This document shows, one piece after another, positions 41,579-56,083 of a DNA stretch of 64,000 bases. The position numbers and the translations under genes were made by a program. The number at the start of each line of letters is the position of its first letter. The stretch's first letter is position 1. The notes beneath the pieces are model-generated. The model made no database searches. It was given only the letters and a program-made list of their open reading frames with translations, and had not been told where the DNA came from. This stretch comes from Paraburkholderia aromaticivorans (GTDB taxonomy: Bacteria > Pseudomonadota > Gammaproteobacteria > Burkholderiales > Burkholderiaceae). Location: assembly GCF_002278075.1 (NCBI RefSeq), contig NZ_CP022990.1, positions 992,001-1,056,000 on the forward strand, in the 5' to 3' direction.

Positions 41579-42292
41579 CTAGAACACGCCCGGAATCACG
41601 CGGTAACGCACGCGGCCCTTGTAGGTCCGATACCCTTCGTCCGCCGAGAGCAGTTGCTCCTCGCGCACGATGCGCCCCACCTGCAATGCGAACTGGCAGC
41701 CATACACCAGCAGGTTTTGCAGACCGAAATTCACCAGCAGAAAACCGATGTCGGTCAAGAAATAACCGAGGTACATCGGATGACGCACGAAGCGATAGGC
41801 GCCACGCGATACGACACCGCGGTTGGCCGGCAAGATGCCGAACGAGCGGCGCAGCGACGCCTTGGCGAACAGTTGCCAGAAAATCCCCAGCAGTTGCAGC
41901 GCCGCGCCGACGGTCTCCGGCACGAGTTGCGCGCCCGGGGCGAGACGCACGGCCAGGAAGTAGTACGTGCCGCCCATCGAGCACATGAAAGCGAACGGCC
42001 GCCAGTCGCGTTTCATCGGCACCCGCGTGAAGAGCGACAAGCCCACCGTGAAGCACGCCGCGACCACCAGCAACAACAGCGTGATCCGCGACGGCGCGGC
42101 AAGCCATTGCATGATCGCGGCATAGGCGAACACGCTCAGCATGAGCGCGGCGCCCACGCGCGCGGCCACCTCGATCAGCGCGTGCCGCAGCCCAGGCGCG
42201 CCGCCCGCGGCGTCGGATCCGCTGCCCGTTGTGGTGGCGCCTTCGATGCTGGCGGCGAGGGGCAAGTCTTGCAAAGGGGTCGTCGGTGTCAT
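41579..42292 (-). CDS. Isoprenylcysteine carboxyl methyltransferase-like membrane methyltransferase
   Basis: A 237-aa protein with about five membrane helices. The C-terminal SAM-binding signature GAYRFVRHPMYLGYFLTDIGFLLVNF and the EEQLLSADEGYRTYKGRVRYRVIPGVF tail identify the ICMT/PEMT-like family, which methylates lipids or lipidated carboxyl groups in membranes. It begins seven bases after the tadG stop, so it appears to be the last gene of the tad operon. Its target is unknown; a pilus or envelope lipid is one idea. No signal peptide is seen. Confidence 0.8.
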   Translation of the reverse strand: MTPTTPLQDLPLAASIEGATTTGSGSDAAGGAPGLRHALIEVAARVGAALMLSVFAYAAIMQWLAAPSRITLLLLVVAACFTVGLSLFTRVPMKRDWRPFAFMCSMGGTYYFLAVRLAPGAQLVPETVGAALQLLGIFWQLFAKASLRRSFGILPANRGVVSRGAYRFVRHPMYLGYFLTDIGFLLVNFGLQNLLVYGCQFALQVGRIVREEQLLSADEGYRTYKGRVRYRVIPGVF

Positions 42293-42299
42293 GGCGCGC

Positions 42300-43640
42300 T
42301 CACTTGGAAATACGCAGGATTTGCGAAGCCAGCTGCGAAAAGCACGGCTTCAGATCGGCGGGCGTCGCGGCGTAGCAATACACGCCGACCGGCTGTTTCG
42401 GGTTGTAGCAGCGCGACAGCGAATCGGCTGTGTTGGCCATGCACTTGAGCAGGTCCTGGCCGAGTTCGTTGTCCGGGCCGGCGGGCTGCACCAGTTCGGG
42501 TCCGTAACCGAGCGTGAACACGTAGGTGCCTTCATCACGCGCCGCCGAGGCCATCGCTTCGAGCAGATTGCGCGACGCGCGATTGACGTTCACGTAGGTG
42601 ATGGTGCCGTTGGGCACGGCGCGCGGCGCGCTCACGGGCCAGATCGGGAACGTCTGTTCGTTGACGTTGTGGGCGTTGTACCACTTCGGCATGGCCGTCA
42701 CGAGCTTGGTCACGTTGCTCTGGAAACACGGCGAGCCGAGCGTCTGGTTGAGCGCATTCATGTTGTACAGCCCCGACATCGTGCCAGGGCTGTCCGGACT
42801 CGCAATCGTGCCGGCGGTGTTGTTGCAGCCGCTCTGATTGGTCGTGAAAAACGAGGAGAAGCTGTTGGGCGCGCCGTCCGAGAAGAACACGATCACGCGC
42901 AAACTGGACGGCTGCGTGATCACCGTGTTCAACTGATTGCGCGCGTTCCAGATCGCTTCGGCCGAATTGGTGCTGCCGTTGAACGTGTATTTATTGATGT
43001 CGGCGGTCATCGTCGTGCGATCGAAACCGCGCGCGTCGCCGTTGAACGGCACGTCGACCACGGTGCCGTACGCGAAGTGCATCAGCGCCACCCGGTCGTT
43101 GGTCACATCGAAATTGTTGAGAAAGGCCACCGCGTTCGAGCGCACCGCGGCCGGCACGCCCGAGCTATTCAGCGAACCCGTCGTATCGATCACGAACGCC
43201 ATATCCAGCGTCTTGCGAATCGCCTGTGACGACGCGCTCACGTTCAGCACCTTGAAGCCGAGCACCTTCGTGAAGCTGACCGGCACGCTCGCCTGCGCGT
43301 TCATGCCGATCGTCACGGTACCGCCGTTGAACACGATCGACGGTGTGCCCGCCGTCACGCTCGAGCCGAGAAACCCCGCCGGATAGTTCGCCGCGAAAAA
43401 AGCCGTTGCCGCCTGCTGCGCGTTGTTGGTCTGCTCCGTCTGGTTGGCGCCGCGCGTGACCGCTTCGCCGGCCGCGATCACCGCGCCGTCGGTGGCGGCA
43501 TCCAGGCGCGCCTTGATCATGTAGCCGAGACCGGAATCCACGGCGAGACCGAGAATGCCCAGCAACGCGATCAGCGAGACCGCCACGATGATGCTGACCG
43601 AGCCCCTCTGCCGCCTTCTGAATGTCGCTGTCGTTTTCAT
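42300..43640 (-). CDS. tadG: Tad pilus assembly protein TadG (VWA-domain pseudopilin-like)
   Basis: A 446-aa protein. The N-terminal TadG/TadE-like anchor (RRRQRGSVSIIVAVSLIALLGILGLAVDSGLGYMIKARLDAATDGA) is followed by a von Willebrand A domain with a MIDAS-like DTTGS at residues 152-156. TadG is thought to anchor or adjust Flp pili at the envelope. GGGGGAAG precedes ATG 43640. It was originally about 49 bases from the upstream pseudopilin gene; an ISL3 element now separates the two, ending 28 bases before this start. Confidence 0.87.
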   Translation of the reverse strand: MKTTATFRRRQRGSVSIIVAVSLIALLGILGLAVDSGLGYMIKARLDAATDGAVIAAGEAVTRGANQTEQTNNAQQAATAFFAANYPAGFLGSSVTAGTPSIVFNGGTVTIGMNAQASVPVSFTKVLGFKVLNVSASSQAIRKTLDMAFVIDTTGSLNSSGVPAAVRSNAVAFLNNFDVTNDRVALMHFAYGTVVDVPFNGDARGFDRTTMTADINKYTFNGSTNSAEAIWNARNQLNTVITQPSSLRVIVFFSDGAPNSFSSFFTTNQSGCNNTAGTIASPDSPGTMSGLYNMNALNQTLGSPCFQSNVTKLVTAMPKWYNAHNVNEQTFPIWPVSAPRAVPNGTITYVNVNRASRNLLEAMASAARDEGTYVFTLGYGPELVQPAGPDNELGQDLLKCMANTADSLSRCYNPKQPVGVYCYAATPADLKPCFSQLASQILRISK

Positions 43641-43659
43641 GGCTTCCCCCGAAACTGCT

Positions 43660-43667
43660 TTTTCTTA
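43660..43667. repeat. Target-site duplication, tadG-side copy
   Basis: TTTTCTTA directly abuts the inverted repeat on the tadG side of the ISL3 element. The identical eight bases follow the other end, matching the 8-bp duplication made by ISL3-family transposases. Confidence 0.93.
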
Positions 43668-43694
43668 GGTTCGTCAGTAAAAAGTGTGGGTTGT
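43668..43694 (+). repeat. Terminal inverted repeat of ISL3 element, tadG-side end
   Basis: This 27-base end starts GGTTCGTCAGT and matches the complement of the opposite end at 19 of 27 positions, including the outer GG-TCGTC and an inner TGTGGGT block. It overlaps the 3' end of the transposase gene. Confidence 0.88.
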
Positions 43695-44921
43695 CGGCGG
43701 CTCGGGCAAATTGCCAAGTGCATGATATAGCGCGATTTCCGTCGTTCGAAACGTCCGGAAGCCGTACGCTTTTCTCATGGTGACTTTGGCCTTGTTGTTC
43801 AAACCCTCGACGATTCCGCTGGAGAACTGCTTGCGCGCATGAAAGTAGTTGAGAATCAGTTCTCGATGGGCGCGCACGGTGCGTGCGAACTTCTTCATTG
43901 GTTCGATGCGTGAGCGCATGACCCGGGTGCACCACTGATCGAGGAACTTGCCTGCCCAGACAGGCGAGATGTAATCCCAGATCTGCTGGAACTCCTCCTT
44001 GAGAAGATAGGCGCGGACACTGCGCAGGTTGTAGTGCAGCAGATCGCGCAGGCGCAGTCGCTGATTGTCAGTAAGGTTCTCTGGCCGCTTGAGCAAACAC
44101 CAGCGGGACTTCTTGAGGACTGGCTCATAGCCGTCGCGGGTCATGCGGCGAGCTTCCTCGGCGCGAACCTCGTCGATCGCCTTGTTCATTTTGGCAACGA
44201 TGTGGAAGCGGTCGAGGATGTTCAGCGCGTTGGGGCAATGTAGTGCGATCATCTCGATGTAGGGCCGCCACATGTCCGAGCAGACGAACTCGACCTGCTC
44301 GCACAACCGTTTGCCGATCATGACGAAGAACTTTGCGAAGCTTTCCTTCGTGCGCTCCTGGCCAACCCAAAGCAGGCGCACGCAGCTGGCCTCGATCTGA
44401 TAGACCAGCGTGAGATAATTGTGCCCTCGGCCATACTGGATTTCATCGACGCCCAAAGCGCGGATGGTGCCGAGTTCGCGATGGGCCAGCCCCCAGTCGA
44501 CCACCCACTCCACCGCCTGGGCAACCTTCTCCCAACTGGTGCGAAAGCTTTGCGCTGTCTCTTTCCAGGAGAGCTTGCGTGCCCACTGCGCGAGAAACAG
44601 CATGTAGGCCTTGGTCAGCGTGTGCTTGCCGATGGCCCACGGCACCGTCTCGACCTTCACGCCGCACTCACGGCAGTCGACGCGGCGCATGGCGTACAGC
44701 AAAATCACCGCGAAGCCCCAGATCGGAATAAATTCGAAACTACGCGATGCGAGCGTGTCATAGCCGCTGCCAGGCCGGTTGCAACACGAACAGATCGGCT
44801 TCGAACCCTTGCGTGGCCGCACGTCGATCTCGATGGTTTTGGACTGCTCGCACAGTCGGGCACTTTCATAGACGAAGCCGGGAAAATGATGGCAGGCATT
44901 GAGCAGGCGGGTCAGCAACAT
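43674..44921 (-). CDS. tnpA: ISL3-family transposase
   Basis: A 415-aa DDE transposase. The N-terminal zinc finger region has CSCCNRPGSGYD and CRECGVKVE. The catalytic core includes GVDEIQYGRGHNYLTLVYQ (first Asp), CSDMWRPYIEMI (second Asp) and a C-terminal SGIVEGLNNKAKVTMRKAYGFRTF with the Glu. An in-frame TTG nine bases upstream is a weaker start. The ATG shares the tetranucleotide CATG with the start of the divergent accessory gene. Nothing suggests it is broken. Confidence 0.93.
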   Translation of the reverse strand: MLLTRLLNACHHFPGFVYESARLCEQSKTIEIDVRPRKGSKPICSCCNRPGSGYDTLASRSFEFIPIWGFAVILLYAMRRVDCRECGVKVETVPWAIGKHTLTKAYMLFLAQWARKLSWKETAQSFRTSWEKVAQAVEWVVDWGLAHRELGTIRALGVDEIQYGRGHNYLTLVYQIEASCVRLLWVGQERTKESFAKFFVMIGKRLCEQVEFVCSDMWRPYIEMIALHCPNALNILDRFHIVAKMNKAIDEVRAEEARRMTRDGYEPVLKKSRWCLLKRPENLTDNQRLRLRDLLHYNLRSVRAYLLKEEFQQIWDYISPVWAGKFLDQWCTRVMRSRIEPMKKFARTVRAHRELILNYFHARKQFSSGIVEGLNNKAKVTMRKAYGFRTFRTTEIALYHALGNLPEPPTTHTFY

Positions 44922-45339
44922 GGTTAGCAAGCGCGCGGGAATCAGTAAAGACGCTATTGTTACCTCAGATCCGCACGCACTGGAGCGCTACGTCCCGGAC
45001 TTGCAGAACTGGCCTGCCTCATGGCGCTTCGAGGACGAGGACATCCCATTCGGACAGGCGCTCGTGAAGGTCTTCACACCTTTCCTGCAACACCTGCTGA
45101 CCCACGGCTATGCCCGCAAAACGTTGCACCGCCACCGCGATCACCTTTGGATGCTTGGTGGCCATCTCATCGAAGTCCGTCACGTCGATCCGGACTTAGC
45201 CGCCATGGATGCCCGCACACTGCTTCTCAATGAGATCCACGAGTTCGGTGGCCCGCTTTCGAGGCACCTCTCCGAGCACGAGCAGAACGCCTTTGACGCT
45301 ACCTGCAAGAAACTCTATCGCTTCCTCTGTCCCTCATGA
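44920..45339 (+). CDS. IS-borne accessory protein of unknown function
   Basis: A 139-aa protein carried inside the ISL3 element, opposite the transposase. It has no named domain that I can assign. FGQALVKVFTPFLQHLLTHGYARKTLHRHRDHLWMLGGHLI resembles the helical SAM-like (core-binding) domain of tyrosine recombinases, but no catalytic domain is present. An in-frame start 21 bases upstream exists. The divergent ATGs overlap by two bases, so there is no separate leader between this gene and the transposase. It could regulate transposition or help target choice (inference). Confidence 0.7.
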   Translation: MVSKRAGISKDAIVTSDPHALERYVPDLQNWPASWRFEDEDIPFGQALVKVFTPFLQHLLTHGYARKTLHRHRDHLWMLGGHLIEVRHVDPDLAAMDARTLLLNEIHEFGGPLSRHLSEHEQNAFDATCKKLYRFLCPS

Positions 45340-45349
45340 ATCGCATCAA

Positions 45350-45376
45350 ACCACCCACAGATTCCGCCGACGAGCC
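45350..45376 (-). repeat. Terminal inverted repeat of ISL3 element, tadE/F-side end
   Basis: Read on the minus strand this 27-base end starts GGCTCGTCGGCGGAATCTG and pairs with the other end at 19 of 27 positions. It begins 11 bases after the accessory gene stop. Confidence 0.88.
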
Positions 45377-45384
45377 TTTTCTTA
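45377..45384. repeat. Target-site duplication, tadE/F-side copy
   Basis: TTTTCTTA directly follows the IS end and is identical to the copy on the tadG side, so the insertion is simple and undecayed. Confidence 0.93.
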
Positions 45385-45406
45385 TTTGACCCGGCTTATC
45401 GGCGCG

Positions 45407-46039
45407 TCAGAACACCGTCATGGCATAGAGATTCGGCGAGAGCGCGGGCGTCCTGATGCCGCCGCCGAGATTCAGCGAACCGATCAGCGGCGTTTGCAGA
45501 TAGAACGCCTCGACCACGTATGCGATCTGGCCGTCGGCGAGCTTGCCTTGCAACAGGTTCACCACCGGCGACGAACTGCCCGCAGCCGGAAGCCCGCTGC
45601 AACTGCCGGTGCCGTCCGTCGCCCAGCGCGTGCCGCTGCTGCCGCAACTCCACAACTGGCTCGCCGGATAGTAGTTGCCGCCGTTCCAGCGGTATTGCGC
45701 GACCACCACGCCGGTGCAGTTATTGCCGCTGCTGTCGCAGTTGTTGTTGCCCATGATCTCGGTGATGTAGATCATGCCGTGCGCCGTCATGTTCAGCGGC
45801 GGCGTGGTCGCGGTCAGCGAGGACATGATGGTCTGCATCGGATAGGTGAGCGACGCGCGCGACGACAGGCTCGCGCCTTCGCGGCTCACGTTGATCAGGA
45901 TCATCTGCGCCTGGATGTTGCGCGCAAGGTCGTACACCGGCAGCGCGAGCGCCACCAGGATCGGCAGCAACAGCGCCATTTCCACGCTGACGATGCCTTT
46001 GGACGCGCGGCGGCGGTTTCGCAGGGAGCGTATGCGCAT
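45407..46039 (-). CDS. tadF: TadE/TadF-like pseudopilin
   Basis: A 210-aa pseudopilin-like protein. The prepilin-type N-terminus SKGIVSVEMALLLPILVALALPVYDLARNIQ has Gly at the cleavage site and Glu at +5, then one membrane helix and a periplasmic domain with several Cys (NNNCDSSGNNC, LWSCGSS, GSCSG) that could form disulfides. It helps assemble Flp pili. Its start follows the tadE stop by one base, and the ISL3 element lies 22 bases after its stop. The TadE versus TadF assignment is by order only. Confidence 0.82.
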   Translation of the reverse strand: MRIRSLRNRRRASKGIVSVEMALLLPILVALALPVYDLARNIQAQMILINVSREGASLSSRASLTYPMQTIMSSLTATTPPLNMTAHGMIYITEIMGNNNCDSSGNNCTGVVVAQYRWNGGNYYPASQLWSCGSSGTRWATDGTGSCSGLPAAGSSSPVVNLLQGKLADGQIAYVVEAFYLQTPLIGSLNLGGGIRTPALSPNLYAMTVF

Positions 46040-46040
46040 G

Positions 46041-46571
46041 TCAGAATCCCTCGTTACGCATCGTCGCCGCGACGCTGAAGGTGAACTTGCCGTTGGCGAA
46101 GAACGGCTTGACGAGCGGCGTGAGGAGCGGCCAGATGCAGTTGATCTGCAGCACCACGATGTCGCCCGGGCTGCCGAACATGCCGGTGCTGTAACTCGTC
46201 TGCGTGTTGTAGGTTTGAGTCGCACCGTTGATGGTGATCACGTAGGTGGGCGAGACGAGCGAATAGAGGCCCATCGAGCTGTTCTTGATCTCCTGCACGA
46301 CGGCCAGATAACGTTGCTGGTTGGTCGCGTTCGGATCGAGGTTGGCCTGCCCCGTCACCGAATAGCGCGCGCCTTCCCGCACCGCGTATTGCATGGTCAG
46401 ATTGACCCACAGCGCGATGCCGAGATCCATCGCAATGCACAGCAACAGGAACAGCAGCGGCGCGATCAACGCGAATTCGATTGTGGCGACGCCGCGCTGC
46501 CTGCGCGTGAGGCCGCGCTTGCCCGCGCGCGCCTCGCCGCTGAAGGGGGACTTCCGGCGAGCGGCTTTCAT
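46041..46571 (-). CDS. tadE: TadE-family pseudopilin
   Basis: A 176-aa pseudopilin-like protein. RRQRGVATIEFALIAPLLFLLLCIAMDLGIALW is the TadE anchor, with Gly-Val cleavage and Glu at +5. The periplasmic part is of TadE size. The start at 46571 overlaps the stop of the hydroxylase-like gene by four bases, so translation is coupled. A longer upstream extension in the same frame is arginine-rich and not TadE-like. Confidence 0.87.
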   Translation of the reverse strand: MKAARRKSPFSGEARAGKRGLTRRQRGVATIEFALIAPLLFLLLCIAMDLGIALWVNLTMQYAVREGARYSVTGQANLDPNATNQQRYLAVVQEIKNSSMGLYSLVSPTYVITINGATQTYNTQTSYSTGMFGSPGDIVVLQINCIWPLLTPLVKPFFANGKFTFSVAATMRNEGF

Positions 46572-47434
46572 TTGGTCTCCTTGTCCAGCACCGGCACGGG
46601 CTTGCGGCCGAGCCCCGCAGCGCGTTCGGCGTGCAGGCGCAGCGGCCAGCAGAACGCCTCCAGCAGCGAATGCGGTTGCGCGCCGTCGTCCAGACCGGAG
46701 GCCGGCCACTCCTCGCTGGCCGGCACCCATTGCGTGTCGAACAGGTGGTCCCACAACGGCAGCAATTGCGTGAAGTTATGGTTGAAATGCTCGGTGCGGT
46801 TCGAATGATGCAGGCGGTGATAGTGCGGATTGTTGATCCACGTGACGCAGCGGCCGAGGTCGATGCGCAGGTTCATATGCGCGAAGTAATTGCCGAGCAT
46901 GAACACGACTGAAGTCGCGCCGACGATCCACGGATCGACCTTGAACAGCACGCCGACGAGTGGATAGAGCAGACAGCCCTTGATGAGCGATTCGACCCAG
47001 TGGTGCCGCCACGTGACCGTGATATTGAATTCGAGCGCGCTATGGTGCAGCGAATGCAGCTTCCACAGCACGGGCCACGTGTGCTGCAAGCGGTGAAACG
47101 CGTATTCGAGCACGTCGATGGTCAACAGCACGATCACGAACGAAGCCACCGCGCCCCACCCGCGCGAATTCAGCACCACCATGCCGCCGCCCAGCGCATT
47201 CACGATCGCGATGCTCGCCGCCGCCGTCAGCGGTTTCATCGCTTCCACCATGGCCAGATACACGCCCGCATACGCGACGTTCAAACGCTGTCCGGCGCGC
47301 GATTGCAGCCGCGCGGCGGGCCAGCGCCGTTCCAGCGCGGCCCCCACGGCCATCATCGCCAGGCCGAGCGCGTACGCGCGCAGCCAGAAGCTTGCGTGGT
47401 TCAACAGGTCAGGTAGCGGGCTGGATGCGAACAT
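46568..47434 (-). CDS. Fatty acid hydroxylase/sterol desaturase superfamily membrane enzyme
   Basis: A 288-aa integral membrane di-iron enzyme. Histidine boxes are HRLQH, HSLHH (then WRHH) and HRLHH, with a fourth His-rich stretch at HFNHNF; this is the full set of the superfamily. It should hydroxylate or desaturate a lipid acyl or sterol-like chain. GGGGA precedes ATG 47434; an in-frame TTG ten codons upstream overlaps the tadC stop. It sits in the place where tadD is usually found in tad operons, between tadC and tadE, overlapping tadE by four bases. A pilus role is possible but unproven. Confidence 0.85.
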   Translation of the reverse strand: MFASSPLPDLLNHASFWLRAYALGLAMMAVGAALERRWPAARLQSRAGQRLNVAYAGVYLAMVEAMKPLTAAASIAIVNALGGGMVVLNSRGWGAVASFVIVLLTIDVLEYAFHRLQHTWPVLWKLHSLHHSALEFNITVTWRHHWVESLIKGCLLYPLVGVLFKVDPWIVGATSVVFMLGNYFAHMNLRIDLGRCVTWINNPHYHRLHHSNRTEHFNHNFTQLLPLWDHLFDTQWVPASEEWPASGLDDGAQPHSLLEAFCWPLRLHAERAAGLGRKPVPVLDKETK

Positions 47435-47460: not shown

Positions 47461-48417
47461 TCAACCACCCGCCATCGAGTTCACGGCCGGGAATAGCTGG
47501 CGCACGACCTGGATCGCCGACGGGCCGACTAGCACGACCAGCAGCGTCGGAAAAATGAAAAACATCAGCGGAAACAGGAGCTTCAAGGCAATCTTGGCAG
47601 CCTGTTCTTCCGCGCGCAAGCGGCGCTTGGTGCGCAGGTTGTCGGTATAGACCCGCAGCGAATCGCCCACGCTGGTGCCGAAACGGTCGGCCTGGATCAG
47701 CATCGCGGCGAGCGTGTCGATATCTTCCACGCCGGTGCGCAGCGACAGGTTGCGCAACGCCTTGTCGCGGCCTGAACCGGCGCGCAGCTCCAGCAGCACC
47801 ATGTCGAACTCGTCTTTCAGCGCATGGCTCTTCACGCCGATTTCCTGAGTGACGCGCATCATCGCCGCGTCGAGGCCGAGGCCCGCTTCCACGCAGACGG
47901 TCATCAGATCGAGCGCGTCGGGCAGATCTTCGAACAGCTTGCGCTGGCGGCTTTCAACGAGACGCGTCATCACGAGATTCGGCAGATAGAAGCCGAGCGC
48001 GGACGCGGCCAGCACCGTCAGCAGCAGATAGATGCGCTGATCGGCTTCGAAGGCGTTGCCGAAGAAGATCAGCGCGAGCGCCGGCAGCGCGAGCGCCAGC
48101 ACCGTCTTGGCGGCGAAATAGACCGCCGGTGCGGACGGCGTGCGGATACCCGCATTGGCAAAGCGCAGACGCAGCGCCGACTTGTCCCAGTCGTCTTTCG
48201 GCAGCGACAGTTTGGCGACCCGCTCGGACATCTTCGTGACCGTCTCGACCCAGTTCTTCTGCGCGCCGGCGTCGGCCTCGACGGCCACGTCCGGCTGCGC
48301 GAGTTCCTCGATGCGCCGTTGCACCGGGTCGGGCCGCAACAGCGTCATCGCCTTCAGCGCCGCGCCGAACACGATCAGAAACATCACCCCCAGCATCACG
48401 ATCTGTTCTATTTTCAT
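47461..48417 (-). CDS. tadC: Tad secretion platform protein TadC
   Basis: A 318-aa type II secretion F-domain protein in the inner membrane, partner of TadB in the pilus assembly platform. DALDLMTVCVEAGLGLDAAMMRVTQEIG and LRTKRRLRAEEQAAKIALKLLFPLMFFIFPTLLVVLVGPS are the typical cytoplasmic four-helix and terminal membrane blocks. ATG 48417 is used because further upstream the frame is arginine-rich and overlaps tadB out of frame. Confidence 0.92.
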   Translation of the reverse strand: MKIEQIVMLGVMFLIVFGAALKAMTLLRPDPVQRRIEELAQPDVAVEADAGAQKNWVETVTKMSERVAKLSLPKDDWDKSALRLRFANAGIRTPSAPAVYFAAKTVLALALPALALIFFGNAFEADQRIYLLLTVLAASALGFYLPNLVMTRLVESRQRKLFEDLPDALDLMTVCVEAGLGLDAAMMRVTQEIGVKSHALKDEFDMVLLELRAGSGRDKALRNLSLRTGVEDIDTLAAMLIQADRFGTSVGDSLRVYTDNLRTKRRLRAEEQAAKIALKLLFPLMFFIFPTLLVVLVGPSAIQVVRQLFPAVNSMAGG

Positions 48418-48461: not shown

Positions 48462-49439
48462 CTAGATATGGATGCGCACGACTTTGCGCATCCACACGAT
48501 GCCGATCAGCATCATGGTGATCGCCACGCCGGCGAGTTGCACGCCGGCCGGGTCCTTCCAGAACACGCTGATATAGCCGGGATTGAGCACCGTCAGCAGC
48601 CCAAGAATCGCGAACGGCAGCACGCCGAGCACCCAGGCCGACAGGCGCCCTTCCGCCGACAGCACGCGCACCTTGCCGAGCAGCTTGAGCCGCTCGCGGA
48701 TGATGCCGCTGATGCTGCCGAGAATCTCCGCCAGATTGCCGCCCGCCTCGCGCTGGATCAACACGGCGATCACGAAGTAGCGCAGATCCTCGACCGGCAC
48801 GCGGCTCACCATATTCAGGAGCGCGTCGTTCATCGAGACGCCGTAGTTGATTTCGTCGAACACCAGTGCGAATTCGCCGCCGAGCGGTTCGGGCAACTCT
48901 TCGCCAACCATGCCGAGCGCGGCCGGAAACGAATGCCCGGCGCGCAGCGCACGAGCGATCAGATCGGCCGCATCGGGCAACTGGCGTTCGAGTTGCAGCA
49001 CGCGTCTGGCGCGCTTGCGGCGCAGAAGCGTCGCCGGCAGCAGGGCTGCCGCCGCGGCGAGCGCGCCGCACACCAGCGCGGGCGCATGCAGCACGAAACC
49101 GCCAAACGCGCCCGCGAGTGCGCACAGCAGCGTGTAAGCGATAAAACGCGCGACCGACCACTTCAGCCCGGACTGCTGCAATTGCCGGTCGAGCGTGTGC
49201 ACGCGCGGCAGGCGCAGCAGCAGGTTCGTGACGAACGGCGAGTCGCTGAGCATGCGCTGCTTGAGAATCGACAGCTGTTCGCTGCTCACGTTGCCGCCCG
49301 CGGACAACGCGCGAATCCGCTCGTCCATGCGCTTCACGGCCTTGCCGTGATGGCTGCTCCAGAACAGATAAAGGCCCTCGATGGACAGCACCACCGCGAG
49401 AAACGCGAGCACCGCGAAGCCGATAAACGACGTATTCAT
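48462..49439 (-). CDS. tadB: Tad secretion platform protein TadB
   Basis: A 325-aa inner-membrane platform protein. An N-terminal helix (IGFAVLAFLAVVLSIEGLYLFW) is followed by the F-domain (LPDAADLIARALRAGHSFPAALGMVGEELPEPLGGEF, YFVIAVLIQREAGGNLAEILGSISGIIRERLKLLGKV) and C-terminal helices. It is likely driven by the TadA ATPase. It lies 27 bases after tadA and 44 before tadC. Confidence 0.92.
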   Translation of the reverse strand: MNTSFIGFAVLAFLAVVLSIEGLYLFWSSHHGKAVKRMDERIRALSAGGNVSSEQLSILKQRMLSDSPFVTNLLLRLPRVHTLDRQLQQSGLKWSVARFIAYTLLCALAGAFGGFVLHAPALVCGALAAAAALLPATLLRRKRARRVLQLERQLPDAADLIARALRAGHSFPAALGMVGEELPEPLGGEFALVFDEINYGVSMNDALLNMVSRVPVEDLRYFVIAVLIQREAGGNLAEILGSISGIIRERLKLLGKVRVLSAEGRLSAWVLGVLPFAILGLLTVLNPGYISVFWKDPAGVQLAGVAITMMLIGIVWMRKVVRIHI

Positions 49440-49466: not shown

Positions 49467-50846
49467 TCATACTTCGAAACGCCGCGCCGGATCGAACATC
49501 TGGTCCGGCAGCACGATGCCGAAGCCCGCCAGCCGCTCGCAGAATTTCGGCCGCACGCCGCTCGCGCAGAAATAGCCTTTGATCATGCCGTTTTCGTCGA
49601 CGCCGGTGCGCTTGAACGTGAAGATCTCCTGCATGTTGATGATGTCGCCTTCCATGCCGGTGATTTCCTGAATGCTCATCAGCTTGCGGCGCCCGTCGGT
49701 CAGACGCGAAGCCTGCACCACCACCGTGATCGCCGACGCGATCTGCTGACGGACTGCCTTGATCGGCATCGTCAAGCCCGCCATGCCGACCATGTTCTCC
49801 AGACGCGTGAGCGCATCGCGCGGCGTGTTCGCGTGCAGCGTCGCCATCGAGCCTTCGTGGCCGGTGTTCATCGCGTGCAGCATGTCGAGCGCTTCGGCGC
49901 CGCGCACTTCGCCGAGCACGATGCGGTCCGGGCGCATCCGCAGCGCGTTGCGCACCAGCGAGCGCTGCGAGATTTCGCCCTTGCCTTCGATATTCGGCGG
50001 CCGGGTTTCGAGCCGCAGCACGTGCTGCTGACGCATCTGTAATTCGGCCGCGTCTTCGATCGTCACGACCCGCTCGTCCTCGGGAATGAAACCGGAGAGC
50101 AGGTTGAGCAGCGTGGTCTTGCCGCTGCCCGTGCCGCCCGAAATCAGCACGTTCAGCTTCGCCTTGATCAGCGCTTCGAGCAGTTGCGCCATGGCGGGCG
50201 TGAAGCTCTGGTTGTTCACCATGTCGGTGACCGTGAGCGGATTCACCGCGAAGCGGCGAATCGACACCAGCGGTCCGTCGATCGCGGACGGCGGAATGAT
50301 CGCGTTGACGCGCGACCCGTCGGGCAGGCGCGCATCGACCATCGGCGTGGATTCGTCGATGCGGCGGCCCACGCGCGAGACGATGCGCTCGATGATCTTC
50401 ATCAGATGGGCGTCGTCGTAGAAGGTCACGTCGGTATGTTCGAGGCGGCCGCGCCGTTCCACATAGACGTGCTGCGACGTGTTCACCAGAATGTCGGAGA
50501 TGGTCGGATCGTTGAGCAACGGTTCGAGCGGGCCGAGGCCGACCATTTCGTCGTGCACGTCCTGGGCGAGACGGCGGCGCTCGAGCTCGTTCATCGGAAT
50601 CTTGTCTTCGTCGACGATCCGCTCCACCAGTTGCGCAAGCTCACGCTTGATCTGCTCGGGCGACAGGCGTTGCAGCTTGTCGAGCTCCACCCGGTCGATG
50701 ATCGCCTGATGAATGTTCATCTTGAGCTGCTGATACGCGCGCCGCGCCGCGAGGCTCTCGGCGGCCGCGCCGGCGGCGGCCGCGGGACTGGCGCTATCGA
50801 ACGGCAGCGTGCCGCTCTGGATCATCAACTGTTCGCGCAATGACAT
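49467..50846 (-). CDS. tadA: Tad pilus assembly ATPase TadA (CpaF family)
   Basis: A 459-aa hexameric secretion ATPase. Walker [10 protein letters not shown] is at residues 237-245. The Asp box ([12 protein letters not shown]), Walker B-like [19 protein letters not shown] and His box [18 protein letters not shown] complete the CpaF signature. It drives both extension and retraction of Flp pili. The N-terminal 100 residues are helical, as in CpaF homologues. The gene is intact. Confidence 0.94.
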
Positions 50847-50912: not shown

Positions 50913-52115
50913 TCAGTGTCCGGGCTTCAGTTGCGGCGGCGAATTCGACCTGCCGGGAAAGAGGCGCCCGAGCACGCTCTTGCGCGTCACGGCCGGCAGC
51001 GGCCACAGCAGCGCGGCCAGTTGCGAGATGCCCTGGGCGAGCGCGCCGCCCTTCGCGCCGGTGACGAGCGGCACGCCGTGATTCAGCGCCTCCGTGGCCT
51101 GCTTTTCGTCGCGCGGCAAGTGATGCGCGACCTTCGCGCCGAAGGTTTCTTCGAGCGTCGCCAGGTCGATGCGCGCGTGCTTGTCGTACTGGTTGACGAT
51201 CACCTTCACCTTGCCCGGCGGATAGCCGAGCTCCTTGAAGATGTCGAGCATGCGGCGGCCCGCATGCAGGTACGGAATGTTCTGCCGCACCACCATGCAG
51301 ATCGAATCGCTGTGATCGAGCGCGTAGATCGCGAGCGGATTGATGTTCTGGCCGACGTCGATCAGCACCGCGTCGTATTGCTCGCGCACCAGCGTGAGAA
51401 TCCGTTCGAGATGCGCGGCGCGCAGTTCGCCGGACTTGACCGGGTCGCCCGCGCCGGCCAGCACGTCGAGATTGGCGTGCACGTGCATCACGCAGGCTTC
51501 GAAGAACGCGGCGTCGAGCCGCTCGATCTGCGAGCACAGATCCGCGAGCGTGGCGGGCGGGGCCTTGTCGGCGACCAGCAGGCTCGCGTCGGCGAACTGC
51601 TGGTTCAGGTCGATCAGCAGCACGCGCTTCTCGCGCAGGGCGGCCAGCCCGTAGGCGAGATTCACGGCGATCAACGTGGTGCCGCTGCCGCCCTTGCAGG
51701 ACGTGAACGACACCACGCGGCCGTCGCGGCGCACGCCGGCGTTTTTCTTCGCCGAGACATGGGCGAGCGCGTCGGCGATCTCGCCGTCGTCGAGCGGCCA
51801 CGAGAGCACATGCCGCACGCCCACGCGCATTGCCGCCATCAACAGGGTGGTCGACGGCGCGGGCGTCACCAGCATGCAGTGCAGATTCGGCATGAGGGAC
51901 AGCATCTCTTCGACGCCGTTCAGATCGCGCGGCGTGAGCTCGGCGTCGTCGACGATCAGCAGGTCGGCGCTCTTGATCGCTGCGGCGTGCACGCGCAACT
52001 GCTTCGCGGTTCCGTGCAGCGTACGCAGACGAAACGCGATGCCGCTTGCCTCGAGACGCGCCGCGATCAGCGGCGCACGCTCGGCGCTGGACGAAATCAG
52101 AAGAGTATCGATCAT
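50913..52115 (-). CDS. tadZ: TadZ/CpaE-type localisation ATPase-like protein
   Basis: A 400-aa protein with an N-terminal atypical receiver-like domain (residues 1-125) and a C-terminal MinD/ParA-like ATPase fold. The P-loop reads KGGSGTT at residues 141-147, so the lysine normally in KGGxGKT is missing; weakened or lost ATP hydrolysis is known for TadZ proteins. LLIDLNQQFAD and VLIDVGQNINPLAIYALDHSD resemble the switch regions. It likely places the pilus machine at the pole. It starts 45 bases after the lipoprotein gene. Confidence 0.88.
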   Translation of the reverse strand: MIDTLLISSSAERAPLIAARLEASGIAFRLRTLHGTAKQLRVHAAAIKSADLLIVDDAELTPRDLNGVEEMLSLMPNLHCMLVTPAPSTTLLMAAMRVGVRHVLSWPLDDGEIADALAHVSAKKNAGVRRDGRVVSFTSCKGGSGTTLIAVNLAYGLAALREKRVLLIDLNQQFADASLLVADKAPPATLADLCSQIERLDAAFFEACVMHVHANLDVLAGAGDPVKSGELRAAHLERILTLVREQYDAVLIDVGQNINPLAIYALDHSDSICMVVRQNIPYLHAGRRMLDIFKELGYPPGKVKVIVNQYDKHARIDLATLEETFGAKVAHHLPRDEKQATEALNHGVPLVTGAKGGALAQGISQLAALLWPLPAVTRKSVLGRLFPGRSNSPPQLKPGH

Positions 52116-52160: not shown

Positions 52161-52454
52161 TCAGTACCCGCTCGACGAGCCGATGCCGATCGTGAAGGCA
52201 TTGGTCGGCGGGGGCGGCGCGGTGAACGACTTGGCGTAGCTCTTCTGCGCCGCCGCTGCCGCCTTGCCGTCGATACCCGCAACCGGATCGGTATTGGCCG
52301 AGCCCTGCGGGTTGAGCGTCTGCATTTCCTTGATCTGGTTGACCGAGTCGCCGAAGGTGGCGTCCCAGTGCGGCGTGGAACTCAGGCAGCCGGCGAGCGC
52401 GGCGCTCAAGCCGGCGCACAGTGCCATGCGGATCAGTGTGTTGGTGGTGGTCAT
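52161..52454 (-). CDS. Small Tad-locus lipoprotein (rcpB position)
   Basis: A 97-aa predicted lipoprotein with signal MTTTNTLIRMALCAGLSAALAGC, where LAGC is the lipobox. The mature part (TPHWDATFGDSVNQIKEMQTLNPQGS) is short and acidic to neutral, resembling the small Burkholderia pilus lipoproteins in the RcpB place. It could help the secretin fold or reach the outer membrane. ATG 52454 has GGAG in front. It is 23 bases after the secretin gene. Confidence 0.72.
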   Translation of the reverse strand: MTTTNTLIRMALCAGLSAALAGCLSSTPHWDATFGDSVNQIKEMQTLNPQGSANTDPVAGIDGKAAAAAQKSYAKSFTAPPPPTNAFTIGIGSSSGY

Positions 52455-52477: not shown

Positions 52478-54271
52478 TTACTGCGAGGCGTGTGAGTCGC
52501 TGGTTTCCGGCGTGGCCGGGAGCACAGCCACGGATGCGGCCGCACTCGGAGCGGGCGCGGGCGTGGGCGCGGGAACCGGCGCCGGGGCGGGCGCCGACGC
52601 TCCCGCAGCCGGTGCGGCGCGCTTCGTGCCTTCCATGTGGCCGGTCAGGTACACGTTCGCTTCGCCGGCGTCGCCGAAGCCGTCGGTGGGCAACGGATAG
52701 TGCTGCGGCAACGGTTTGGCCAGACGCGGCGTAACGACGAACACCAGTTCGGTCTTGTCCTGCTCGTAGCTCGTGCTGCGAAACAGCGCGCCGAGCACGG
52801 GCAACTCCGCGGCGCCGGGCAAGCCCTTGATCGAACCGGTCACGTTGCTCTTCAAAAGGCCGCCTATCGCGAAGCTCTGACCGTCGAACACCTGCAGCGT
52901 GGTGGAGGCGCGGCGCGTCGTGATCAACGGCAGGATCGACGTGGTGTTCGAGTTGCCGGCGCTCACCACCACGCCGGTGGACGACAGTTCGGACACTTCC
53001 GGCGCGACCTTCAGGTTGATGCGTCCGCCTTCGAGCACGGTCGGCGTGAAGGTGAGGCCGACACCGTACTGCTCTTCCTGCAGCACGATGGTGGTGCCGC
53101 CGGAGCCGTTGCTTTGCGGCACCGGAATATAGACCTTGCCGCCCGCGAGGAAACTCGCTTCCTGGCCGCTGATCGCCATCAGATTCGGCTCGGCGAGGAT
53201 CTTCACGAGCTGATCGGTTTTCTGCGCGTCGACCGCGAACCTGAGCGGCGAATTGTTCGCTTTCGACGCGGTCAGCGCGCTGAGTCCGCCCGACAGATAG
53301 TCGGCCAGCAAGCCGAAGCTCCAGCTGCCGATGCCGCCGTTGATATTGGCCGCCATGCCGAGCTGGTCGATCAACGTCTTCGACACTTCGGCGACCTTCA
53401 CTTCGAGCATCACCTGCTGCGGCGCGGCCACGTGCATCATGTTGATGATGCGCTCGCCGCTCGCGCTGCCGAGCGAGGGCGCCGGCGCGCCCATCGCGCG
53501 CGGCGCGGCGCCGACCGGCAACGGGCCGCTGCCCATCGGCGCGGCGCCTTGCAACGCGGTGGCCGGGCGGGCCACGAAGGCGCGCGCCAGCTCGAGCACG
53601 CGTTCGGCCTTGACCGCGTCGGAGACGGTGCCGGTCAGCACCAGCGAGTCGGCGGCGGCCTTCACCTGAATGCCGGTTTCCTCCGGCATCAGCGCGGCGA
53701 GGGTTTGTTGCAGTCCGCCCGGATCCGCGCCGACGCTCACGTCGATGATCGTGCAGGAGCCGCTGCGCCCTTGCACGATCATGTTGGTGGTGCCGACATC
53801 GGAGCCGAGCAGATAAAGCGTTTGCGGGGATACGAGCATGGCCTGCACGATCGACGGATTGCCGACCGTGCGGCTCTTCACCGGTTCGCGCACGTCGATC
53901 ATCGCGGACTTGCCGACCGGGATCGTCACCGAGCTATGGTCGGCGACCGGGCCGCTGCAGTTCGGGCCGCGGCTGCCTTGCTGCGCGCCGCCGGAGGAAG
54001 CGCCCGGGCCCATGCCGCTGGCGGCGATGGTCAGACGCACCGAGCCGTTCGACGCCACCGTGAGCGGCACGTCCGGCAGTCCCGGCACGCCCGCTGCCGC
54101 GTTCTGGCCGGCCGCTTGCGCCACCGGCAGCATCGTCAGGTACATGCCGAGCAGCACGCCGGTGCAGGCTTCGGCGATCCGGGTGCGGCCCCGTGGCGAG
54201 CGCGAATTCGCTTCGCGTGGGCCGGGCGGGTGCTGCGGCGCGCTAGCGCGCTGAGTCGTTCTGGCGTTCAT
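52478..54271 (-). CDS. rcpA: Outer-membrane secretin RcpA/CpaC
   Basis: A 597-aa secretin forming the outer-membrane pore for Flp pili. The N-terminal domain KSAMIDVREPVKSRTVGNPSIVQAMLVSPQTLYLLG leads to a BON-like segment (VKAAADSLVLTGTVSDAVKAERVLELARAFV). The secretin core then has PQQVMLEVKVAEVSKTLIDQLG and YGVGLTFTPTVLEGGRINLKVAPEVSELS. The C-terminal 70 residues are a Pro/Ala-rich tail. The first 50 residues contain a charged N-region before the hydrophobic signal (TGVLLGMYLTMLPVAQAAG). Start ATG 54271 has GGGGT upstream. Confidence 0.92.
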   Translation of the reverse strand: MNARTTQRASAPQHPPGPREANSRSPRGRTRIAEACTGVLLGMYLTMLPVAQAAGQNAAAGVPGLPDVPLTVASNGSVRLTIAASGMGPGASSGGAQQGSRGPNCSGPVADHSSVTIPVGKSAMIDVREPVKSRTVGNPSIVQAMLVSPQTLYLLGSDVGTTNMIVQGRSGSCTIIDVSVGADPGGLQQTLAALMPEETGIQVKAAADSLVLTGTVSDAVKAERVLELARAFVARPATALQGAAPMGSGPLPVGAAPRAMGAPAPSLGSASGERIINMMHVAAPQQVMLEVKVAEVSKTLIDQLGMAANINGGIGSWSFGLLADYLSGGLSALTASKANNSPLRFAVDAQKTDQLVKILAEPNLMAISGQEASFLAGGKVYIPVPQSNGSGGTTIVLQEEQYGVGLTFTPTVLEGGRINLKVAPEVSELSSTGVVVSAGNSNTTSILPLITTRRASTTLQVFDGQSFAIGGLLKSNVTGSIKGLPGAAELPVLGALFRSTSYEQDKTELVFVVTPRLAKPLPQHYPLPTDGFGDAGEANVYLTGHMEGTKRAAPAAGASAPAPAPVPAPTPAPAPSAAASVAVLPATPETSDSHASQ

Positions 54272-54358: not shown

Positions 54359-55192
54359 TCAAAAACATTCTTGTCTTGCGTCGGCGCCGTCGAGCACTCG
54401 CACGCAGTTGGCCGGCGCATGCGCAACCACTTTGCGCACGATGTGCACCGGCTTCGGTTCGGGCGCGGGCGCCACGGCGACCGGCGTTTTCAGCAGCGTG
54501 GCCTTGGTGGCGCCGGCGGTATCGATCGCCTGCGGATCGATCTGGTTGCGCAACACGAGAGACAGCGTGCCGATGCTGCGCGCGAGGTCGATCTTCTCGG
54601 CCTGTTCCGGCGAGACTTCGAGCGTCACCGCGTCGACCACCTTCGGCTTGGTCTCGTCGCGGCCCACTTCCTGGGCGACGGCCAGTACGAGAATCTTTTC
54701 GAGCACGATCTTCGAGATGTTCTGGTCGCGCTGCGTGCCCGGATCGCGGGCATCCTTCTGCGTGTTGACAATGATGTCGACGTAATTGCCCGGCAGCGCG
54801 AAACCGGCCACGCCGATCACGTCGTTCACGCGCACCGTGATGGCGCGCTTGCCTTCGCCGATCACCGCCGAGAGGCCGCCGAGCGTGCCGACCGGCGTGA
54901 GCTTCGCCTCGAGGATCGGTTCGCCGTGCAGCAGGCTTTCCTTCAGCACGCGGCCGTCGAGTTTCTGCAGGTCGGTGAACGAACCCGGCGGCACGCTATT
55001 GGACGGCCAGTCGGTGAGCTTGAGGAAATCCGGGCCGATCCGCTGACCGAGATTGATGTCGGTTGCCGCCACCACCACCTTGGTCGTGGCATTCGACGAC
55101 TGCGAGACCATCCAGCGCGAGGCGAACACCACCGCGGTGAGGCCCGCCAGCGTCGCGATCAGCAGCATCGTTACAGCGCGCGCATTTTTCAT
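54359..55192 (-). CDS. cpaB: Flp pilus assembly protein CpaB/RcpC
   Basis: A 277-aa periplasmic protein with an N-terminal membrane anchor (RAVTMLLIATLAGLTAVVFAS). A SAF domain (VVVAATDINLGQRIGPDFLKLTDWP, VLKESLLHGEPILEAKL) and the CpaB core (GKRAITVRVNDVIGVAGFALPGNYVDIIV) follow. It is thought to bind peptidoglycan or the secretin. ATG 55192 is preferred over an upstream in-frame start because the anchor begins right after it. It is 36 bases after tadV. Confidence 0.9.
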   Translation of the reverse strand: MKNARAVTMLLIATLAGLTAVVFASRWMVSQSSNATTKVVVAATDINLGQRIGPDFLKLTDWPSNSVPPGSFTDLQKLDGRVLKESLLHGEPILEAKLTPVGTLGGLSAVIGEGKRAITVRVNDVIGVAGFALPGNYVDIIVNTQKDARDPGTQRDQNISKIVLEKILVLAVAQEVGRDETKPKVVDAVTLEVSPEQAEKIDLARSIGTLSLVLRNQIDPQAIDTAGATKATLLKTPVAVAPAPEPKPVHIVRKVVAHAPANCVRVLDGADARQECF

Positions 55193-55228
55193 TTTCAACC
55201 CCCGAATTGTGTCCTGTCCCGGCACACG

Positions 55229-55765
55229 TCACACGCTGGCGAACAACACGCATGCGCTGCCTATTGCTATCGCGACGCCGTACGGCATGGTCCCCGTCGC
55301 ACTGCTTTCAGCCACACTGCCCGACCTTCGCAGCGCGCCGTTTCCCGGCGTCGCGCAGTCGATCAGCAATGCCGCCATCCCACTCAGCCCGGCGCGCATC
55401 TGGCGGCGCCGCAGCCATATTGCGAGCGACCCGATGCCGCCGATCACACAGGTCGCCAAGCCAATTTCGAGCGCGCCGTAAGCGCCGCAGAAAGCGCCGA
55501 CCGCCGCCATCAGCTTCACGTCGCCCGCGCCCAGGAGCCGCATTGCGTAGCCCGGCAGGAAAATCGCGCCGCCGGCCAGCATGCCGCCCAGCCACAACGT
55601 CAATGCGTCGATACCGCCATGCGTGAACCACTGCACCGGCATCGCCACGACCAATCCCGACGCCACCAGCCAGTTAGGAATCCGGCGCGTTTGCACGTCC
55701 CACAGTGCGGCGACGAGTACCAATGTCATCACGCACGGCCCAACCGGAAAAGGAACCCCGTTCAT
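55229..55765 (-). CDS. tadV: Prepilin peptidase TadV/CpaA
   Basis: A 178-aa membrane aspartic protease with about five or six helices that cleaves Flp and pseudopilins. The two catalytic aspartates are visible: D23 in WDVQTRRIPN and D82 in GAGDVKLMAA (GxGD motif). It lacks the methyltransferase domain, as is usual for TadV/CpaA. The gene follows flp by 132 bases. Confidence 0.92.
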   Translation of the reverse strand: MNGVPFPVGPCVMTLVLVAALWDVQTRRIPNWLVASGLVVAMPVQWFTHGGIDALTLWLGGMLAGGAIFLPGYAMRLLGAGDVKLMAAVGAFCGAYGALEIGLATCVIGGIGSLAIWLRRRQMRAGLSGMAALLIDCATPGNGALRRSGSVAESSATGTMPYGVAIAIGSACVLFASV

Positions 55766-55897: not shown

Positions 55898-56083
55898 TCA
55901 GGCGGCCGGGTTGGTCACACCGTTCAACGCGTTCTGCACGTACGTGAACACGGTGTTCAGCTTGCTGCCGACCGTAGTGATCGTCGCAATGATCGCCACT
56001 GCGATCAGGCCGGCCAGCAGGCCGTATTCGATCGCTGCAACGCCGTCTTCTTCGCGCAGAAATTGTTGGATCGTGTTCTTCAT
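55898..56083 (-). CDS. flp: Flp major pilin
   Basis: A 61-aa Flp/Fap pilin, the structural subunit of the Tad pilus. The leader MKNTIQQFLREEDG ends at Gly14; cleavage leaves VAAIEYGLLAGLIAVAII with Glu at +5 and Tyr at +6, the conserved Flp motif. The mature subunit is about 47 residues, with a short C-terminal SKLNTVFTYVQNALNG. GGGGGT is upstream. It is the first gene of the tad operon. Confidence 0.95.
   Translation of the reverse strand: MKNTIQQFLREEDGVAAIEYGLLAGLIAVAIIATITTVGSKLNTVFTYVQNALNGVTNPAA

Follow-up and report, generated by a model that had tools for sequence, protein, structure and literature searches.

According to the accessible portion of PMC4471445, prepilins are cut on the cytoplasmic side of the membrane and the mature pilin has no cytoplasmic domain; the methylase of PilD-type peptidase/N-methylases binds zinc through cysteines (PMC10191384 and PMC4471445, each available in part). 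The prepilin peptidase of type IVc pili has no methylase domain, and the available text of PMC10191384 still calls the function of pilin methylation a mystery. In Pseudomonas aeruginosa TadD is bound by the last four residues of RcpA, and secretin assembly requires them (accessible part of PMC10499894), and a published model of the Tad system treats tadD as accessory (partial text of PMC6668835). Here we analyse a tad operon in a window of 64,000 nucleotides from Paraburkholderia aromaticivorans (contig NZ_CP022990.1, positions 992,001 to 1,056,000), on the minus strand of a 3.0-Mb contig in an 8.9-Mb genome. Like a Tad/Flp (type IVc) locus, the window has tadV, rcpC, rcpA, tadZ, tadA, tadB, tadC, tadE, tadF, tadG and flp. 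It differs in having no tadD and an RcpA without the C-terminal tail, and in carrying an extra small lipoprotein gene, a fatty-acid-hydroxylase-type gene and a gene for a membrane methyltransferase resembling isoprenylcysteine carboxyl methyltransferases (ICMT-like). We lean towards reading these features as three separate facts that share one operon.

An ICMT-like gene recurs at Tad loci

The ICMT-like gene (41579–42292, minus strand) ends the operon, and its product matches Pfam PF04140 (ICMT) at 31.6 bits against a cut-off of 24; it also matches PEMT and DUF1295. It is neither an equivalog of protein-S-isoprenylcysteine O-methyltransferase (NF040696; 34.7 bits against a cut-off of 160) nor of LmtA (TIGR04571; 26.4 against 325), and its nearest named relatives are in Paraburkholderia. 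Across 58 genomes of the genus, orthologues above 200 bits number 23, and 14 of them lie 1.2–5.9 kb from tadC (a set of 80 tadC rows, weaker rows left out), whereas none of 80 lower-scoring ICMT-family copies lies within 15 kb (Fisher P = 1.2e-11).

The initial annotation had suggested a variant of the Tad machine, and for this gene the suggestion holds up: it is not confined to the strain, and its link to Tad reaches beyond the genus, both in a sample of the family and among the best 80 of at least 347 named-genome relatives. At E ≤ 1e-20 the gene is present in 26 of 200 family genomes, that of the window included, and in 20 of the 26 it sits within 15 kb of tadA. Coordinates establish this for 18; the other two (G370 and G359) come from reading the locus, where the tad genes are apparently frame-broken. 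In another genome of this sample (G363) the gene lies about 13 kb from flp and tadV. A sample of 150 genomes of the order yielded four with the gene, again counting our own, with tadA about 7 kb (G203) or 16 kb (G198) away; the copy in G130 is on a 4.5-kb contig. For the best 80 relatives, the fetched stretch shows a tad locus in 30, tadZ alone in 5 and a remote or uncertain Tad gene in 3. Represented among the 30 are Myxococcota, Alphaproteobacteria and one actinobacterial metagenome-assembled genome (MAG) on a long branch. On a tree of these 80 the tad label changes 8 times, against a mean of 25 after shuffling, and 6 of the changes are forced by well-supported branches; the link to Tad therefore arose or was lost several times.

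The place of the gene within the operon also differs between loci. It follows tadG in the window and its near kin and in L116, L235, L117, L120 and L121, and it follows tadD in L119. It comes after tadC in L238 (abutting), in L219 and in the Pandoraea loci L155, L158 and L159; in L109–L114 a small gene, MarR-like by eye, separates it from tadC. Elsewhere it is found between tadV and rcpC (L233) or 152–160 bases upstream of flp (L166, L168, L169, L171 and L181). As a Tad accessory the ICMT-like gene is recurrent and optional; it varies in position but tends to stay at the locus. Searches of an open-access library, which leaves most subscription journals outside, turned up no description of this link; in the available text of PMC10224339, an ICMT gene stands beside a gene for a collagen-like protein, not a tad locus.

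Two other arrangements were seen around the gene. One gene family occurs upstream of it, directly or at most some 3 kb away, in L166, L168, L169, L181, L189, L194 and L207, Tad loci from MAGs that carry the label Burkholderiales, Betaproteobacteria or Proteobacteria; the member in L169 has a LuxR-type domain. The gene also forms a free two-gene unit with tadZ in L124–L129, L145–L147, L149 and L151 (L125 and L149 are the same locus). This unit is under purifying selection and lies near a gene that by eye resembles nicotinamide phosphoribosyltransferase, with no other tad gene in the stretch; in L124–L129 its tadZ is about 70% identical to that of the window. The P-loop is kept in the seven free tadZ genes looked at, and the median ratio of nonsynonymous to synonymous substitution (dN/dS) for free tadZ is 0.215. 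In L123/L144 and L143 the ICMT-like gene stands alone at the same site.

The hydroxylase is kept where tad genes are lost

The second enzyme gene (46568–47434, minus strand) lies between tadC and tadE, and the initial annotation suggested that its activity, too, may belong to the pilus system. Its product belongs to Pfam PF04116 (FA_hydroxylase; 84.1 bits against a cut-off of 31), and ten histidines (H114, H118, H127, H130, H131, H144, H186, H206, H209 and H210) are invariant in 18 aligned rows. The best named family is OlsE (NF052566, also PF04116), which matches over residues 53–242 and shares conserved histidines; at 73.2 bits against an equivalog cut-off of 475, the window protein is not an equivalog. 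No match was found among solved structures with phmmer.

An orthologue (at least 59% identity) is present in 17 of the 58 genus genomes, our own included, and G024 adds a relative at 41%. The gene occupies the slot between tadC and tadE in three of the 17 (G000, G022 and G051) and, in two whose tad genes are arranged differently (G019 and G029), lies about 5 kb beyond tadC. In the remaining 12 it is alone at the same chromosomal site, and all 12 copies adjoin the convergent MFS and DeoR genes that also border the window operon. A nucleotide search with tadC DNA (E ≤ 0.01), reaching up to 700 bases ahead of 18 hydroxylase genes, revealed tadC remnants next to 11 of the 12 lone copies and in P. 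ginsengiterrae L142. Some remnants are short (matches of 24 and 56 bases in L095), and none was found upstream of the lone copy in L102 or at the other-site loci L109, L110, L111, L221 and L223. In L106 the hydroxylase frame continues into the final 12 bases of the ICMT-like gene and the sequence downstream of it, with 245 of 262 positions identical to L104. Judging from these junctions, the tad genes appear to have been lost by deletion on either side of a hydroxylase that was retained.

Selection has continued to act on the gene. Median pairwise dN/dS (NG86) is 0.12 for lone copies (n = 8), 0.24 for the relic group (n = 4) and 0.26 for tad-borne copies (n = 5); the sets differ in divergence, and the comparison says that lone copies are no less constrained. 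Two of the genomes with lone copies have no close tadA and nothing that matches tadC: in G057 no tadA was matched at E ≤ 1e-40, the single match in G030 is at 38%, and for tadC both genomes gave no match at E ≤ 0.001. The other ten carry other tadA-like genes. Because the hydroxylase is kept and constrained where the surrounding tad genes have been lost, G057 and G030 included, it has a use of its own and is probably not a part of the pilus. We rejected it as a pilus component on the tadC relics, the L106 junction and dN/dS, and only the label of a PF04116 lipid-type hydroxylase is warranted. Such an enzyme would hydroxylate a membrane lipid rather than a component of the pilus. The gene occupies the tadC–tadE slot in a small group of Paraburkholderia, and selection keeps it where its pilus neighbours have been deleted.

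Two further observations concern this gene. Apparent second hydroxylase copies after the ICMT-like gene in L139 (72%) and L140 (61%) were discarded, since the query hydroxylases of L105–L108 likely run on into DNA that, in tad-bearing loci, lies behind the ICMT-like gene; a junction of this kind is visible in L106. In the tad locus of L109 (11433–13211), the ICMT-like gene and the hydroxylase are separated by genes for a GT2 glycosyltransferase and for a protein with a methyltransferase domain, and the same clusters occur in L110.

Absence of tadD goes with absence of the RcpA tail

The initial annotation had also reported that tadD is missing and seems replaced. The first part stands: the Pfam matches revealed no tadD in the operon, and a TPR-containing TadD query (from L119) gave only 6 weak matches in the whole genome, the best with E = 1.4e-6 at 30% identity. 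We tallied 48 loci with rcpA, tadB and tadC (41 distinct), a set fetched mostly through either enzyme gene and thus not random. Ten of these loci (8 distinct) have tadD, never together with the hydroxylase; that all ten carry the ICMT-like gene is a consequence of how they were fetched.

The absence is mirrored in the secretin. RcpA (52478–54271, minus strand; Pfam Secretin) ends in VGAAG[YF]VY in all nine readable rows from tadD loci, the tenth (L230) being frame-broken, and in 0 of 38 others (7 versus 33 distinct loci). Among the loci compared, this ending is seen only in the tadD loci, namely L117, L119, L120, L121, L163, L229 and L235. The conserved tip recalls the TadD pilotin system of P. 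aeruginosa. The window has neither TadD nor the tip, and the P. aeruginosa tip, which ends in L414, S415 and D416 in the accessible text of PMC10499894, is unlike VGAAG[YF]VY. The absence of tadD is real and, among the loci compared, goes with the absence of the RcpA tail, whether or not the two enzymes are present.

The second part, that one of the enzymes functionally replaces tadD, is almost certainly wrong. The hydroxylase does occupy the slot held by tadD in the order tadC–tadD–tadE of L117, L120, L121 and L235. However, both the hydroxylase and tadD are missing from 25 of the 41 distinct loci, and five of these (L130–L134) have no ICMT-like gene either, while loci with tadD can carry the ICMT-like gene; nor would the role of an outer-membrane pilotin be expected of an inner-membrane hydroxylase. 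Given sister loci without all three genes, we rejected both enzymes as TadD replacements.

A different candidate lies in the gap between rcpA and tadZ. This gene (52161–52454, minus strand), missed in the initial annotation, encodes 97 residues, looks like a lipoprotein by eye and has no Pfam match. It is found in relatives of the window arrangement, and tadD loci have a different small lipoprotein in this gap. Because the absence of tadD is matched in RcpA and this gene is present in relatives, it is the natural candidate for a pilotin and would serve the secretin in place of TadD.

The ICMT-like protein as a candidate pilin N-methyltransferase

An AlphaFold model built on 49 aligned rows has a mean pLDDT (model confidence) of 88.7; an earlier 15-row model (pLDDT 58) was not used. 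Foldseek placed 5v7p nearest, followed by 8xku and 4a2n, all weakly and none at E ≤ 0.001, and phmmer against solved structures gave four weak matches (best E 0.018). The protein shares RHPxY and RxxxEE with the ICMT superfamily (PF04140, with PEMT and LmtA), and the 49 rows hold no invariant cysteine. It differs in lying far below the equivalog cut-off and in being bacterial and Tad-linked. Basic residues concentrate in loop 2 (mean 2.9), loop 4 (4.9) and the C terminus (4.7), against 0.0–0.8 elsewhere; by the positive-inside rule, the catalytic loops carrying the RHPxY and EE regions are predicted to face the cytosol. NnrU and MddA lie near the ICMT superfamily; we made no use of them here.

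This topology bears on the proposal of the initial annotation that the enzyme modifies a terminal carboxyl, that is, methyl-esterifies the C terminus of a pilus protein. The family name favours it, and two of the nearest structures, 5v7p and 4a2n, are isoprenylcysteine carboxyl methyltransferases (Foldseek E 0.0077 and 0.028). Against it stand the score well below the equivalog cut-off for such enzymes, the predicted cytosolic position of the catalytic loops and a mature pilin without a cytoplasmic domain (PMC4471445, in its accessible part). We regard carboxyl methylation of pilins as highly improbable and rejected it on the predicted topology. With the catalytic loops in the cytosol, it is the N terminus of the pilin, not the C terminus, that would be within reach.

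The peptidase gene tadV (55229–55765, minus strand) has Peptidase_A24 as its sole Pfam match and no methylase domain. From this and the predicted cytosolic active site we infer that the ICMT-like protein may N-methylate Tad pilins, supplying the step that TadV lacks; we offer this tentatively. In this scheme TadV cuts Flp, TadE and TadF, and the ICMT-like protein, as an S-adenosylmethionine-dependent methyltransferase with its active site facing the cytosol, would methylate the new N-terminal amine and so take on, in TadV systems, the task that falls to the methylase domain of PilD in other type IV pili. The likeness to PilD lies in the proposed reaction and the predicted membrane face. The protein itself differs: it has no match to the PilD methylase domain in Pfam, is encoded by a separate gene, belongs to the ICMT/PEMT superfamily and has no invariant cysteine. 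Extended to the family, the idea would be that some Tad pili use a dedicated, stand-alone pilin N-methyltransferase, recruited more than once, and that many of these loci belong to a TadD-free subtype in which RcpA lacks a docking tail and a different pilotin serves; this combined reading is speculative, and we hold it only loosely.

Several observations weigh against N-methylation. The N termini of Flp do not differ consistently according to whether a locus has the ICMT-like gene. Nine of the 23 genus orthologues lie away from tadC: six follow a lone full-length tadZ, one occupies the same site with no tadZ beside it, and two are on their own. Of 44 close tadC copies in the genus sample (at least 300 bits), 10 have the gene within 15 kb. 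In the family sample the 20 kb read around 5 of the 26 copies contained no tad gene, and 42 of the best 80 relatives have no tad context, 20 of them forming one Mesorhizobium clade. The locus tallies, moreover, lean towards both enzyme genes, a bias that touches the genome samples and the count of 14 of 23 versus 0 of 80 less strongly. Constraint on free copies is similar to that on tad-borne ones (median dN/dS 0.17 versus 0.15). This last point also fits the view that both genes are passengers without a pilus role, placed by chance and kept for other reasons, which is in effect true of the hydroxylase, given its tadC relics and dN/dS. Chance does not, however, explain the repeated placement of the ICMT-like gene at different points of tad loci in Pseudomonadota and Myxococcota, and we consider hitch-hiking unlikely for the pair.

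The remaining points against N-methylation fit a lipid substrate, which is a serious rival because genes of the two kinds co-occur without tad and in all tad loci with the hydroxylase. On this account both are lipid enzymes, the ICMT-like protein methylating and the hydroxylase hydroxylating an envelope lipid, either to adapt the membrane around the pilus or merely under shared regulation. There is a precedent in Leptospira LmtA, which methylates lipid A phosphate. The ICMT-like gene is present in all 8 distinct tad loci that have the hydroxylase, as a shared lipid pathway would have it, and the order tadC–ICMT–hydroxylase is found in L219. The two genes also stand side by side, hydroxylase first, in L142, where the 20 kb read contained no tad gene. 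In two sphingomonad loci, L208 (9857–11298) and L210 (9782–11225), a PF04116-type gene (Pfam match checked only for L208) comes directly after an ICMT-like gene, and no tad gene was found. The weak profile matches to LmtA and OlsE point the same way. Against a shared pathway, the ICMT-like gene is gone from the site in all 12 lone-hydroxylase loci, and eight of these genomes have no orthologue anywhere; furthermore, 33 of the 41 distinct tad loci have no hydroxylase, and 28 of these 33 carry the ICMT-like gene, in a set fetched largely through that gene. Lipid modification by the pair is a possibility to be taken seriously, yet we would not bet on it.

Organization of the operon

The genes run, on the minus strand, in the order flp, tadV, rcpC, rcpA, small lipoprotein gene, tadZ, tadA, tadB, tadC, hydroxylase, tadE, tadF, insertion sequence, tadG and ICMT-like gene. 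With TadA, TadB, TadC, TadE/TadF, Flp, TadV, RcpA, RcpC and TadZ encoded in one cluster, the locus is that of a Tad/Flp pilus. The major prepilin gene flp (55898–56083) encodes 61 residues, including REEDG|VAAIEYG, and was identified from the gene call and the sequence. Downstream of tadV, rcpC/cpaB (54359–55225) matches Pfam RcpC and, above its cut-off, TIGR03177. Beyond rcpA and the lipoprotein gene come tadZ (50913–52115; AAA_31), the ATPase gene tadA (49467–50846; T2SSE), and tadB (48462–49439) and tadC (47461–48417), both matching T2SSF. Behind the hydroxylase, tadE (46041–46571) and tadF (45407–46039), a second TadE-type gene, were assigned by Pfam, as was tadG (42300–43640), which has a VWA domain and a Tad domain.

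The stop of the hydroxylase and the start of tadE share four bases (ATGA), and seven bases separate the tadG stop from the start of the ICMT-like gene, so the coordinates and spacings of the initial annotation are exact. Both spacings are identical in L103, L104, L139 and L141, the four relatives examined at base level, and are therefore not due to chance, which bears out the conserved operon spacing; L141 comes from P. bryophila LMG 23644, whose operon is not interrupted.

An insertion sequence not recorded in the initial annotation separates tadF from tadG (43668–45376, minus strand). It is 1,709 bp long, encodes an ISL3-family transposase, is flanked by the 8-bp repeat TAAGAAAA and has 17 copies in the genome including this one, all listed at 100% identity; it has probably moved recently. 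Because it parts tadG and the ICMT-like gene from the rest, co-transcription of these two genes with those upstream is doubtful in this strain.

Implications

In our judgement, the recurrent link between the ICMT-like gene and Tad is of greater interest than the pairing of the two enzymes with which the initial annotation began. The lone hydroxylase amounts to a natural experiment, in which overlap within an operon does not by itself make a gene part of the machine. Loci without TadD, in which the RcpA tip is absent as well, suggest that the Tad secretin has a second route of escort. Finally, a separate methyltransferase gene at Tad loci in more than one phylum makes the question of pilin methylation directly testable.

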